Below are positions 4,410 through 49,914 of a stretch of DNA of 64,000 bases, one piece after another (within the stretch, counting starts at the first letter, position 1; the number at the start of each line of letters is the position of its first letter). Where the stretch lies: contig NZ_SRKY01000001.1 in NCBI RefSeq assembly GCF_004803475.1, forward strand, positions 620,001 through 684,000, written 5' to 3'. Below the pieces are notes generated by a model. That model did not search any database. It saw only the letters and a list, made by a program, of their open reading frames with translations, and had not been told where the DNA came from. Origin of the DNA: Aliishimia ponticola. GTDB taxonomy: Bacteria > Pseudomonadota > Alphaproteobacteria > Rhodobacterales > Rhodobacteraceae. The position numbers and the translations under genes are program-made.

Positions 4410-4894
4410 GCGGCGACCCTGCGTTCAGTTACCCAAAGCCCCGTGCCCCAGAAGGCGACGAAGCAAAGCAGCCAAAGACTGCCGACCAAGGTGGATTGCA
4501 CACCCGCCCCGATGAAACCCAGCACAAGGCCAAGGAGCAGAAAGATCGGCGCGGCCGCCAACAGCGCCCAAAAGAGCGCGAGCCGCGCGGTATAGAAACT
4601 GCCCTGCCCGCCAAAGATCAGCGCGATGACGTGGCTGATACCGGCGATCAGGTAGAAGGCCAGCGGGGCAATCATCAACCAGCCAAGCAGCGCGCCACCC
4701 ATCATCATGTTCAGATCGCCTTCGGTCAGATGCGCCTCACGGGCGAGCCGTGGCAACTGCGCCAGAAACATCAGCGCACAGCCCGCAATAAGATAGGCCA
4801 GCACCCGGTCCTCCCGCGTGCCATCCCCCAGCAAATCGGCGACCACCAGACGGGGCCGCCGATACATGGCGAGAATTCTGCGCGAAACGCTCAT
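4406..4894 (-). CDS. YIP1-family membrane protein, suf operon (proximal)
   Basis: A 162-aa protein with a short basic cytoplasmic N-terminus and about four hydrophobic spans (residues 28-48, 55-85, 95-125 and 130-155). It belongs to the same Yip1-like group as the next gene. The two may be an ancient duplication or two halves of a heteromeric membrane unit. Its ATG overlaps the sufD stop by one base and its stop overlaps the next gene's start by four, so the sufD-yip1-yip1-sufS block is tightly coupled. Function is not known from sequence; there is no catalytic motif. Confidence 0.72.
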   Translation of the reverse strand: MSVSRRILAMYRRPRLVVADLLGDGTREDRVLAYLIAGCALMFLAQLPRLAREAHLTEGDLNMMMGGALLGWLMIAPLAFYLIAGISHVIALIFGGQGSFYTARLALFWALLAAAPIFLLLGLVLGFIGAGVQSTLVGSLWLLCFVAFWGTGLWVTERRVAA

Positions 4895-6168
4895 CAGCCG
4901 CGGCGACGACGCAACCAGCCGGACAGCCGTTCGGTGAGTTCTTCGGCGATATCCGCGTCCTCGATCTCTTCCAGCGCTTCGGCAAGGAAGGCCAGCGTCA
5001 TCAGGTCGGTCGCTTCGGCCATCGGCACCCCGCGCGAGCGCAGATAAAACAGGCCTGTCTCATCGATCGCGCCGGACGTGCTGCCATGGGAGCAGGCAAC
5101 GTCATCGGCATAGATTTCAAGCTCCGGCTTGGCGAGGAACTGGCTGTCCTCATCCAGCAGCAAGGACTGGCTGATCTGATAGCCGTCGGTCTTTTGCGCG
5201 CCTTCCTTCACAAGGATCTTGCCCTGGAACACGCCGACCGCGCCATTGCGCAGCACCTTTTTGAACACCTGACGGCTTTCGCAGTTGAGCGCGTCATGCG
5301 TTACGAAAACCGTGTCATCATGATGAAAATCGCCATCACCGACACAGGCGCCGGCCACATGGGCAATCGCGTCATCGCCCGTCAGATCGATCACGCATTC
5401 ATTGCGGGTCAACCGGCCATTGACCGTCAGCGTGAAGGATTTGAACGCGCTTTGCGTGCCCAGCCGTGCGAAAATATGCGTAGCGTCGCGCCGTTCGTGG
5501 TCGCGGCCTTGCGCACGCACATGGTTGAAGCGCGCAGTATCCGCGACATCGACCTCCATGCACTGATTGAAGCGCGCGGCGCCGGGGCCGTTTTCTAGCA
5601 GCGTCAGTTCGGCGCCTGCGTCCAGCTTGATGACATGATGCAGAACCGCGTCCGAGTCTTCTTTCGTGTGCCGATAGATGATCGAGATCGGTTTTTCCGC
5701 CTTGCCCGTAACATGGATCAGAACACCGTCGGTCGCATAGGCCGTATTCAACGCCGCCAGCGGACGGGGAACATAATGCCCCTCGCCTTCCAGCTTGCCG
5801 TAAAGGTCGGACGCCCAATGGATGTCCTGCGCATTTGCAAGGCGATCAATTTGCAAACCCGACATTTGCAAATCGCCTGACGCCGCGGCGTCAAACACAC
5901 CGTCTACAAAGACAATTTCCAGAACATCACGATTTGCAAAGAGCCGCTCTTCATCATTTGCAAATACCGCCGCACGCGGCGCATCGGGCTGAACAAGCGT
6001 CTCGGGACGGGTGTATTTCCAGTACTCGTCCCGGCGACCGGGCAGGCCCATGTCGCGCACACGCGTCAGCGCCGCTTTGCGGGCCGGATCAGACCAACCG
6101 CCGGTCGGCAGCGTCATCGCCGCAAGCCGATCTTCGGTGGTATTGGATGTGGTTGCCGGTTCGGCCAT
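4894..6168 (-). CDS. sufD: SufD, Fe-S scaffold subunit
   Basis: A 424-aa subunit of the SufBC2D scaffold that builds iron-sulfur clusters in the cytoplasm. The central and C-terminal part shows the right-handed parallel beta-helix of the SufBD family, including DDVACSHGSTSGAIDETGLFY, with the conserved Cys and His that contribute to the SufB-SufD interface, followed by YLRSRG. The start overlaps the sufC stop (TAATG). An oddity lies at nucleotide level: codons 69-112 contain five near-copies of the palindrome TTTGCAAA, encoding FAN, FAN, LQM, LQI and LAN with codons (TTT, TTG, GCA, AAT) unlike those preferred around them (see the repeat entry). The protein itself looks intact. Confidence 0.95.
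   Translation of the reverse strand: MAEPATTSNTTEDRLAAMTLPTGGWSDPARKAALTRVRDMGLPGRRDEYWKYTRPETLVQPDAPRAAVFANDEERLFANRDVLEIVFVDGVFDAAASGDLQMSGLQIDRLANAQDIHWASDLYGKLEGEGHYVPRPLAALNTAYATDGVLIHVTGKAEKPISIIYRHTKEDSDAVLHHVIKLDAGAELTLLENGPGAARFNQCMEVDVADTARFNHVRAQGRDHERRDATHIFARLGTQSAFKSFTLTVNGRLTRNECVIDLTGDDAIAHVAGACVGDGDFHHDDTVFVTHDALNCESRQVFKKVLRNGAVGVFQGKILVKEGAQKTDGYQISQSLLLDEDSQFLAKPELEIYADDVACSHGSTSGAIDETGLFYLRSRGVPMAEATDLMTLAFLAEALEEIEDADIAEELTERLSGWLRRRRG
5833..5965. repeat. Cluster of five TTTGCAAA palindromes inside sufD
   Basis: ATTTGCAA or a longer form occurs at 5833-5840, 5849-5857, 5864-5873, 5932-5940 and 5956-5965. Four hold the full 8-bp palindrome TTTGCAAA; the first is TTTGCAAG. 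Start-to-start spacings are 16, 15, 68 and 24 bp. On the coding strand they fall in two codon registers (TTT GCA AAT and TTG CAA AT), so protein conservation alone does not explain them. The same palindrome is the half-site I recall for ScfR-type acyl-CoA regulators such as PccR of Rhodobacter sphaeroides. The function here is unknown. Confidence 0.75.
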
Positions 6169-47505: not shown

Positions 47506-47568
47506 TTTGCAAAACCGGATTTGCAAAATCATCAATATTTACTTCAAGCTTAAAATTTCAAGCTTGAA
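47506..47568. promoter_or_regulatory. Double palindrome operator region before the aminobenzoyl-CoA gene
   Basis: Two motif pairs lie in an AT-rich stretch 52-114 bp before the gene. First, TTTGCAAA at 47506-47513 and again at 47520-47527, separated by 6 bp. Second, TTCAAGCTT at 47543-47551 followed by the perfect palindrome TTCAAGCTTGAA at 47557-47568. The TTTGCAAA pair recalls the site of ScfR/PccR-type acyl-CoA regulators (recalled with a 4-bp spacer). The TTCAAGCTT pair, repeated at 14-bp spacing, suggests a second dimeric regulator, such as a MarR- or TetR-type protein. Confidence 0.7.
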
Positions 47569-47619
47569 ATAGTTTGCCCGACGCCCGACACTCCTCCAAA
47601 GACGCCGAGGAGGATGAAG

Positions 47620-49914
47620 ATGCGTATTGCCTGTTTGGGCGGTGGACCTGCCGGACTGTATTTCGCGATCTCGATGAAGCTGCGCGATCCGTCGCACGAT
47701 ATCACGGTGATCGAACGCAACCGCCCCGACGACACATTCGGCTGGGGCGTCGTGTTGTCGGACGAAACGCTGGGAAATCTTGCGGCGAACGATCCCCAAA
47801 GCGCCGAGCAGATCCGCGCCCATTTCGCCTATTGGGATGATATTTCCCTCAAGATCGGAGGGCAGGATCTACGCTCCTCCGGTCATGGGTTCTGCGGCAT
47901 CGGGCGCAAGCAACTGCTGATCTTGCTGCAAGCGCGCGCCCGCGAGCTTGGAATCGACCTTCGGTTCGAAACCGAATTCGACGACGTCGATCGCTATAGC
48001 CGCGACTACGATCTGGTGGTCGCCAGCGACGGGCTCAATTCGCGCACCCGCACCCATTTCCAGCAACAGTTCCAGCCCGAGATCGACCTGCGCCTTTGCC
48101 CCTTTGTCTGGCTGGGCACGCACCAGACCTTTGCCGATGCCTTCACCTTCATCTTCGAAGAGACCGATAAGGGTTGGCTCTGGGCGCATGCCTACCAATT
48201 CGACGAGAACACCGCGACCTTCATCGTCGAATGCGCGCAAGAGACCTATGACGCCTATGGTTTTGCCGATCTCAGCCAGGAGGAAAGCATCGCCATCTGC
48301 GAAGAGGTCTTCCGCGACCACTTGGGCGGACACGGATTGATGAGCAATGCGGGCCATATTCGCGGCTCGGCCTGGATACGGTTCCCGCGCGTGCTGTGCG
48401 GGAAATGGCACCATGACAACGTCGTTCTGCTGGGCGATGCGGCGGCCACGGCGCATTTCTCTATCGGTTCGGGCACCAAACTGGCCTTCGAATCCGCCAT
48501 CGCACTGGCCGAATATTTGCAAAATGAACCGGATTTGCAGTCTGCATTTGCAAAATACCAGGATGAGCGCCGGCTTGAAGTGCTGCGCCTGCAATCGGCC
48601 GCGCGCAATTCGCTGGAATGGTTCGAACATGTGGAGCGTTATCTGCATCTGGACCCGGTGCAGTTGAACTATTCCCTGCTGACGCGCAGCCAGCGGATCA
48701 GTCACGAAAACCTACGCCTGCGGGACAAGGCTTGGCTGGAAGGCGCGGAACGCTGGTTCATGGACCGTGCCGGGGCCGCGCCGGATGCACCACTGCGCCC
48801 GCCCATGCTGGCGCCGTATCGTCTGGCCGATATGGAGTTGAAGAACCGCATCGTTGTTTCACCCATGGCGCAGTACAAAGCCGTCGATGGATGCCCGACC
48901 GATTGGCATTTGGTGCATTACGGCGAACGCGCCAAGGGCGGCGCCGCGCTTGTCTATACCGAAATGACCTGCGTCAGCGCCGAAGGCCGGATCACACCGG
49001 GCTGTCCGGGCCTATATACGGCAGAGCATGAAACCGCATGGCGGCGGATCACCGATTTCGTTCATGCACAAACCGACGCGAAGATCTGCTGCCAGATTGG
49101 CCACTCGGGGCGCAAGGGGTCGACCCGCATCGGGTGGGAAGGAATGGACCAGCCCCTGCCGGACGGCAATTGGGATCTGGTCAGCGCCTCCGCCCTGCCC
49201 TGGTCGCCGCAAAACGCCACGCCGCGCGAAATCACCCGTGCGGAGATGGAGGAGATCACCGCCCAGTTCCTCGACGCCACCCATATGGCCGCGCGCGCAG
49301 GCTTCGACATGATCGAACTCCATGCGGCGCATGGCTATTTGCTGTCCTCTTTCATCTCGCCAGTGTCGAACCAGCGCATGGATGACTATGGTGGCACGCT
49401 GGAGAACCGGATGCGCTGGCCGCTCGAAGTGCTGCGCGCCATGCGGCAGGCCTGGGCATCGGGCAAGCCACTGTCGGTTCGGATATCCGCCCATGACTGG
49501 GTCGGCGATCACGGGATCACGCCCGAAGACGCCGTGGAAATCGCGCGCATGTTTGCCGAGGCCGGTGCCGACCTGATCGATGTTTCTGCCGGTCAGACCA
49601 CGCCTGAGGCACGCCCCGTCTATGGCCGTATGTTCCAGACGCCGTTCTCGGACCGTATCCGTAACGAGGCGGGGCTGCCGACCATGGCCGTTGGCAATAT
49701 TTCAGAGGCGGATCACGCCAATTCGATCCTGCTGGCCGGACGCGCAGATCTTGTCGCGGTTGGGCGGCCTCATCTGGCCGACCCCTACTGGACACTGCGC
49801 GAAGCGGCGCGGATCGGGGACCGCGCGGCGACGGATTGGCCCTTGCCCTATCTTGCCGGGCGCGATCAGCTTTGGCGCCTTGCCGACCGCGACGCAGAAA
49901 TCCGCGAGGTATGA
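47620..49914 (+). CDS. Bifunctional FAD monooxygenase/old-yellow-enzyme fusion (2-aminobenzoyl-CoA or salicylyl-CoA type)
   Basis: A 764-aa fusion. The N-terminal half (about 1-375) is a PHBH-like FAD hydroxylase: GGGPAGLYF (7-15) and [20 protein letters not shown]. The C-terminal half (about 390-760) is an old yellow enzyme FMN/flavin reductase: [43 protein letters not shown] and [11 protein letters not shown]. This matches 2-aminobenzoyl-CoA monooxygenase/reductase, which oxidises and dearomatises anthraniloyl-CoA, and the related salicylyl-CoA 5-hydroxylase. The gene 4 bp downstream encodes tryptophan dioxygenase, favouring the anthranilate role. The ATG at 47620 is chosen because GGAGG then has 6-bp spacing. 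TTTGCAAA motifs lie upstream and also inside the gene. Confidence 0.88.
48516..48554. repeat. TTTGCAAA copies inside the aminobenzoyl-CoA gene
   Basis: Full copies of TTTGCAAA at 48516-48523 and 48547-48554, with a partial TTTGCAG at 48534-48540 between them. In the protein they encode YLQN, DLQ and AFAK, in different codon registers and with unusual codons (TTG, GCA, AAT). The copies upstream of the gene and those in sufD are the only other full examples I found in the window. Confidence 0.7.

Follow-up and report, generated by a model that had tools for sequence, protein, structure and literature searches.

Known domain-marking systems

To our knowledge, defined DNA motifs that mark the terminus domain of bacterial chromosomes are hardly known beyond enterics and Vibrio. 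The ram/RacA system of Bacillus subtilis combines a MerR-like protein with short palindromes distributed across a single chromosomal domain, features with counterparts in the genome described here, but it concerns the origin domain, uses a GC-rich motif and belongs to a Firmicute. In the Escherichia coli Ter macrodomain, the 13-mer matS, the site of MatP, is distributed over an 800-kb stretch (PMC7188993) in 23 copies (PMC3330122), and PMC7188993 states that MatP and ZapB are confined to enteric bacteria. Caulobacter ZapT (21 kDa with tag; PMC7858052) gives ten ChIP peaks, mostly in ORFs and all but one in the terminus region (PMC7188993; the terminus geography is also given in PMC7858052), and PMC7188993 also reports that its authors identified no consensus and that sequence specificity in vitro was low. 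A further set of described sites belongs to ScfR-type regulators. PrpR of Mycobacterium tuberculosis binds TTTGCAAA, at a site in which a single base separates a perfect box from an imperfect one (PMC3420887), ScfR sites commonly consist of two nearly identical boxes, and the RamB boxes of Paracoccus are separated by an 18-bp spacer (PMC10370305).

The TTTGCAAA boxes described here share features with each of these systems. As with matS, a short palindrome is present in many copies over several hundred kilobases round the terminus; unlike matS, the enriched site is 8 bp rather than a 13-mer, it occurs in pairs and small arrays, and its host is an alphaproteobacterium. As with the ZapT sites of Caulobacter crescentus, the boxes are alphaproteobacterial, terminus-biased and mostly intra-ORF (PMC7188993), and a ZapT homologue is encoded in the same genome; unlike those sites, they have a sharp motif. 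As in ScfR operators, the box is TTTGCAAA and two boxes flank a spacer. However, spacers here are 5-7, 13, 14, 16 and 23 bp, compared with 18 or 1 bp in the published ScfR sites, and most pairs lie inside ORFs around the terminus, whereas ScfR operators are promoter sites of a few metabolic genes. Among the matches listed in the open-licence literature, none describes a terminus motif or an array of TTTGCAAA for Rhodobacteraceae. The arrays look like matS-like terminus-domain sites in some Rhodobacteraceae. With moderate confidence, we interpret the boxes in sufD as part of a terminus-domain array of paired TTTGCAAA bound by an ScfR-type protein that would organise the terminus.

An array of boxes within sufD

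The window, that is, the whole stretch of 64,000 nucleotides analysed (C1:620001-684000), belongs to a 4.08-Mb draft assembly of 15 contigs, ~1.2 Mb of which was covered by base-by-base reading. The sufD array comprises the following features, in window coordinates:

4894-6168 (C1:624894-626168), minus strand: sufD, the array-bearing gene (ORF and orthologue search)
5833-5840, plus strand: ATTTGCAA, incomplete fifth box (motif scan)
5850-5857, no strand assigned: TTTGCAAA box, codon phase 2 (motif scan)
5865-5872, no strand assigned: TTTGCAAA box, codon phase 2, 15 bp after the 5850 box
5933-5940, no strand assigned: TTTGCAAA box, codon phase 0
5957-5964, no strand assigned: TTTGCAAA box, codon phase 0, 24 bp after the 5933 box

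The shorter ATTTGCAA occurs on the plus strand at 5833, 5849, 5864, 5932 and 5956, all within sufD. The first-pass annotation had described a cluster of palindromes in two reading registers, and both statements are borne out, with four TTTGCAAA and a fifth ATTTGCAA within 133 bp, 5850/5865 in phase 2 and 5933/5957 in phase 0. Synonymous-codon shuffling of sufD (n = 20,000) gave a mean of 0.123 TTTGCAAA and a maximum of 2, compared with the 4 seen. Among the best 80 of 553 orthologues, the closest five are Tateyamaria loci (77-81% identity), TTTGCAAA is present in sufD of none, and a single ATTTGCAA lies inside the gene in two (L070 and L075). In a codon alignment of the host sufD with 14 of the 80 kept orthologues, the boxes arise through synonymous substitutions and through residue replacements at SufD positions that vary; the residues encoded at the boxes are FAN, FAN, LQM, LQI and LAN here and, for example, FHN, FGE, LTL, VRI and LAE in Tateyamaria. 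The shuffle null and the alignment both support the earlier claim that selection acts on DNA, not protein. In the comparison with orthologues, the same residues encoded without the motif would have counted against that claim; the motif is absent there, but the residues mostly differ, and this shows a lineage-specific gain.

The window contains eight TTTGCAAA in total, compared with 1.20 in dinucleotide shuffles, and 0 of 100 shuffles reached eight. The remaining four had been placed by eye at or in a putative aminobenzoyl-CoA gene, and they are indeed upstream of and within one 766-aa gene (47614-49914):

47506-47513, no strand assigned: TTTGCAAA box, intergenic, first member of a pair 14 bp apart
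47520-47527, no strand assigned: TTTGCAAA box, intergenic, second member of the pair
48516-48523, no strand assigned: TTTGCAAA box in the 766-aa gene, phase 2
48547-48554, no strand assigned: TTTGCAAA box in the 766-aa gene, phase 0, 31 bp after the 48516 box

The 47506-47527 pair has a 6-bp spacer and lies ~0.1 kb upstream of the 766-aa gene; a pair at C1:500336 likewise has a 6-bp spacer. These two intergenic pairs could be ordinary ScfR-type operators.

Paired boxes cluster around the probable replication terminus

Across the genome, TTTGCAAA occurs 90 times, 48 of them on C1, compared with 12 occurrences of a reversed control. Defining a pair as two TTTGCAAA with 2-32 bp between them gives 15 close pairs at 12 loci, and 0 for the reversed control. 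Forty relatives have 0-3 pairs each; in a sample of 394 genomes from the family, the runners-up have 8, and most of the family has 0-1 per genome. Start-to-start spacings of the 13 pairs in C1:455-960 kb are 24 (four pairs), 22 (three), 14 (two), 13, 15, 21 and 31 bp. A spacing of 23 is absent among these 13 and occurs at least seven times elsewhere in the family, by hand count of the pairs listed. The spacers of 14 pairs with 22-bp spacing, of which two are homologous, show a weak inner C...G preference, and no consensus is claimed.

The polarity of KOPS (GGGNAGGG) switches at C1:582-583.5 kb, with 131 of 135 sites between 386 and 1004 kb fitting the switch, and from this polarity we infer that the replication terminus lies there. 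GC skew on C1 is clearly negative from 606 kb onward, and a DnaA domain match lies on a different contig, C10. A dif consensus had no match at ≤3 mismatches, its best score being 18/28 in the terminus domain compared with 19 in the C10 control; dif and the termination point need not coincide (PMC13342612). Pair loci span ~130 kb to the left and ~375 kb to the right of the terminus, sufD being ~42 kb to the right of the switch, and 13 of the 15 pairs (10 of the 12 loci) are ≤400 kb from it (binomial P 3.8e-6). Outside this range, a pair on C9 lies at a distance of 2.3 kb from an ScfR domain, and another is on C12. Counted individually, 41 of the 90 boxes are near the terminus compared with 17.7 expected. 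Single boxes merged to clusters are just mildly enriched (23 of at most 72, P 0.009), so the signal resides mainly in the pairs.

Two single TTTGCAAA lie <2 kb from the KOPS switch, one at C1:583740 (L023:9740) in an ORF with HTH domains and the other at C1:584883 (L023:10883) upstream of a response-regulator gene.

GC content is equal (0.613) in C1:386-1004 kb and in C10:1-400 kb, which served as an origin-side control. TTTGCAAA is the top strand-merged 8-mer, with 40 copies in C1:455-960 kb and 5 in C10:1-400 kb, a comparison favoured by terminus-domain edges that were drawn from the motif itself. Counting boxes in ORFs chosen by a crude composition rule, the excess over a codon-shuffled expectation proposed in the first-pass annotation is large in the terminus domain (31 boxes compared with 3.63 expected, the largest count in 60 synonymous shuffles being 7) but not clear in C10 (5 compared with 2.83, sd 1.63). 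The reversed control AAACGTTT occurs once in core-region ORFs and not at all in C10 ORFs.

Pairs centred on the terminus recur in other genera

Comparison genomes were selected on pair count, not pair position, and several from other genera have pairs clustered around a KOPS switch. In G204, the seven pairs are all located between 1.22 and 2.57 Mb on a contig of 4.08 Mb whose polarity reverses between 1.87 and 1.911 Mb (centring on the switch, P 0.0056), and no box was found in the five stretches sampled from the interval 20 kb to 1.12 Mb. G203 has pairs at 1.91, 2.09 and 2.36 Mb, with a polarity reversal between 2.10 and 2.20 Mb, and further pairs at 2.80 and 3.11 Mb; the 2.80-Mb pair resembles the C9 pair of the host genome and is presumed to be an ScfR operator. 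Jointly, pairs of G204 and G203 have a mean relative distance to the switch of 0.205 (P 0.00035); including the presumed operator gives 0.218 (P 0.00032). In G267, pairs at 0.51, 0.61 and 1.15 Mb accompany a polarity reversal between 0.625 and 0.75 Mb, and a fourth pair, on C15, is 0.9 kb from an ScfR domain. G282 has eight pairs, two of them ≤2.4 kb from an ScfR domain, in an assembly too fragmented for placement.

Two sites are common to genomes of different genera, in which the codons of the motif are retained. An indolepyruvate oxidoreductase gene carries the site TTG CAA ... TTT GCA AAG in G203, G282 and G387, three genera among which codons agree at just 46-47% of identical residues; the host orthologue, at ~C1:0.99 Mb, reads ATG GAG ... 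TTC GCC AAG. A TIGR00275 gene carries TTG CAA AC ... TTT GCA AA in both G204 and G267, with codon agreement at 60% of identical residues. The single congeneric genome compared (81% complete) has two pairs, one resembling the host C9 pair beside an ScfR gene, and the lack of arrays there suggests that the array is young or was lost in that genome. Isolated pairs in the family are often ScfR-linked. In a sample of seven genomes with isolated pairs (G205, G245, G387, G373, G208, G305 and G195), a KOPS switch is suggested within ~200 kb of the pair in G205, and none was found within ~150-200 kb in G245, G387 and G373.

In G112, a 428-aa HupE/UreJ-like ORF contains four TTTGCAAA in 92 bp (L255:1451-1542), resembling the sufD array.

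Candidate binding proteins and alternative readings

We propose that a sequence-specific protein would occupy each pair, probably as two dimers with a separation of about two helical turns, and that the bound protein may bridge sites or use a partner and so organise, mark or tether the terminus in the manner of MatP. Paired palindromes about two helical turns apart over half a megabase round the terminus would suit a bridging or marking protein of this kind, and the array may also be linked to division. The first-pass annotation had offered three guesses, of which a binding array for a nucleoid protein came closest. The Fe-S setting that it mentioned is incidental, and regulation specific to Fe-S or suf genes was rejected, since sufD is one among ten terminus pair loci. 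Oriented signals (KOPS-like sites or Tus-type fork barriers) were rejected as well, because TTTGCAAA is a perfect palindrome and thus directionless. A sharp motif together with two or three named candidate proteins in culturable marine bacteria would make alphaproteobacterial terminus organisation directly testable, and the scattered presence of arrays, with a congeneric genome apparently lacking them, means that gain or loss of such a system could be watched.

The most likely candidate binder is of the ScfR type, favoured because paired TTTGCAAA are the operators of this family. The earlier reference to ScfR regulators such as PccR was apt as far as the motif goes, given the PrpR box, the two-box ScfR sites and the recurrence of pairs beside ScfR genes. 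Pairs lie 0.9-2.4 kb from a PF09856 domain in, for example, G246, G281, G097, G113, G317 and G214, also in G369, G344, G348 and G342, and on C9 of the host genome; in five more genomes, pairs coincide with or lie close to the start of ORFs that are homologous to one another, and the one such ORF tested is an ScfR. The host encodes a full ScfR domain set (PccR-like) at C9:182740 and a shorter, partial ScfR-like protein at C1:81152, beside a 122-aa ORF read as a putative response regulator. Either the PccR homologue or the shorter protein would be the candidate, and a protein specific for TTTGCAAA is thus expected to encounter the terminus pairs. ScfR is present in 371 of 394 genomes, mostly in two copies. 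Copy number was rejected by eye as the cause of the arrays, since array-rich genomes have 2-3 copies (two in G000, G001, G203, G267 and G112; three in G204, G282, G132 and G196) and most of the family has two. A tentative extension, which we put forward as a possibility and little more, is that an ScfR CoA-thioester sensor was recruited as terminus organiser in several Rhodobacteraceae, so that acyl-CoA status would be read at the terminus as the cell divides.

The same array might instead be bound by a ZapT homologue, connecting the terminus to the Z-ring via ZauP and ZapA as in Caulobacter. A suitable gene exists inside the domain: at C1:889 kb, the ORF next after ihfA (TIGR00987, above cut-off) is 392 aa long and contains a MerR_1 domain. 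The mostly intra-ORF, terminus-biased peaks of Caulobacter ZapT fit this assignment, but its reported lack of a consensus and low specificity in vitro do not (PMC7188993), and the exact match to an ScfR box would be coincidence. We consider the ZapT homologue the principal alternative, though an unlikely binder. The ZapT-like MerR protein (L039:1795-2973) has a long Pro/Ala-rich middle.

Distinctly doubtful is occupation of the array by some other DNA-binding protein that was gained in some lineages and is absent in others. A gained gene would match the patchy distribution of arrays better than ScfR, which is nearly universal, but no such gene is in hand, and the ScfR box would have to be common to both by chance or descent.

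We give only a low probability to the reading as a decoy, in which late-replicating boxes absorb a PccR-type regulator and thereby adjust how much of it is free as the cell cycle proceeds. The scheme is favoured by the match of the box to ScfR operators and by the copy number of terminus DNA, which is the lowest on the chromosome while cells grow; however, pairing at a fixed 22/24 bp is not required of a sponge, and origin-proximal sites, with their higher copy number, would serve better.

Hardly more credible, and if anything slightly less so, is the reading of the pairs as ordinary operators that regulate their host or nearby genes, a large acyl-CoA regulon lying near the terminus by chance. 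Acyl-CoA genes do occur among the carriers (an enoyl-CoA hydratase in the host, a 3-hydroxyisobutyryl-CoA hydrolase-type gene in G204), the intergenic pairs at 47506 and C1:500336 are operator-like, and pairs are found beside ScfR genes elsewhere in the family. The carriers, however, are without common function. On C1, 10 of the 13 pairs fall inside picked ORFs whose functions are unrelated and three are intergenic, one of these following a holC-like ORF. Besides the enoyl-CoA hydratase, the C1 carriers are an unassigned 320-aa ORF and SufD, with two pairs each, and a 420-aa ORF, the window's 766-aa gene, IspDF, AnmK and a GcvT-like protein; among the carriers in other genomes are argC and genes of aminotransferase type and cytidylyltransferase-like type. 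No theme joins sufD, ispDF, anmK, the GcvT-like gene and argC, pairs lie deep inside ORFs, and this reading would leave unexplained why the pairs of several genera centre on the KOPS switch. The 420-aa ORF (L019, one pair) has no family match and an odd composition, and may not represent a genuine gene.

Chance or regional base composition is very improbable: although motif count guided the choice of both the domain edges and the other genera, GC is equal in both regions, TTTGCAAA ranks first of all 8-mers, the AAACGTTT counts are 1 and 0, the synonymous-shuffle null is exceeded, and the pattern is replicated in G204 and G203.

Two further genomes carry many near-identical pairs that are probably repeat elements. 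In G234, five of seven pairs, on several contigs, read AACTT/AAGTT between common boxes, and G386 has five similar 33-bp elements with near-identical pairs, also on several contigs.
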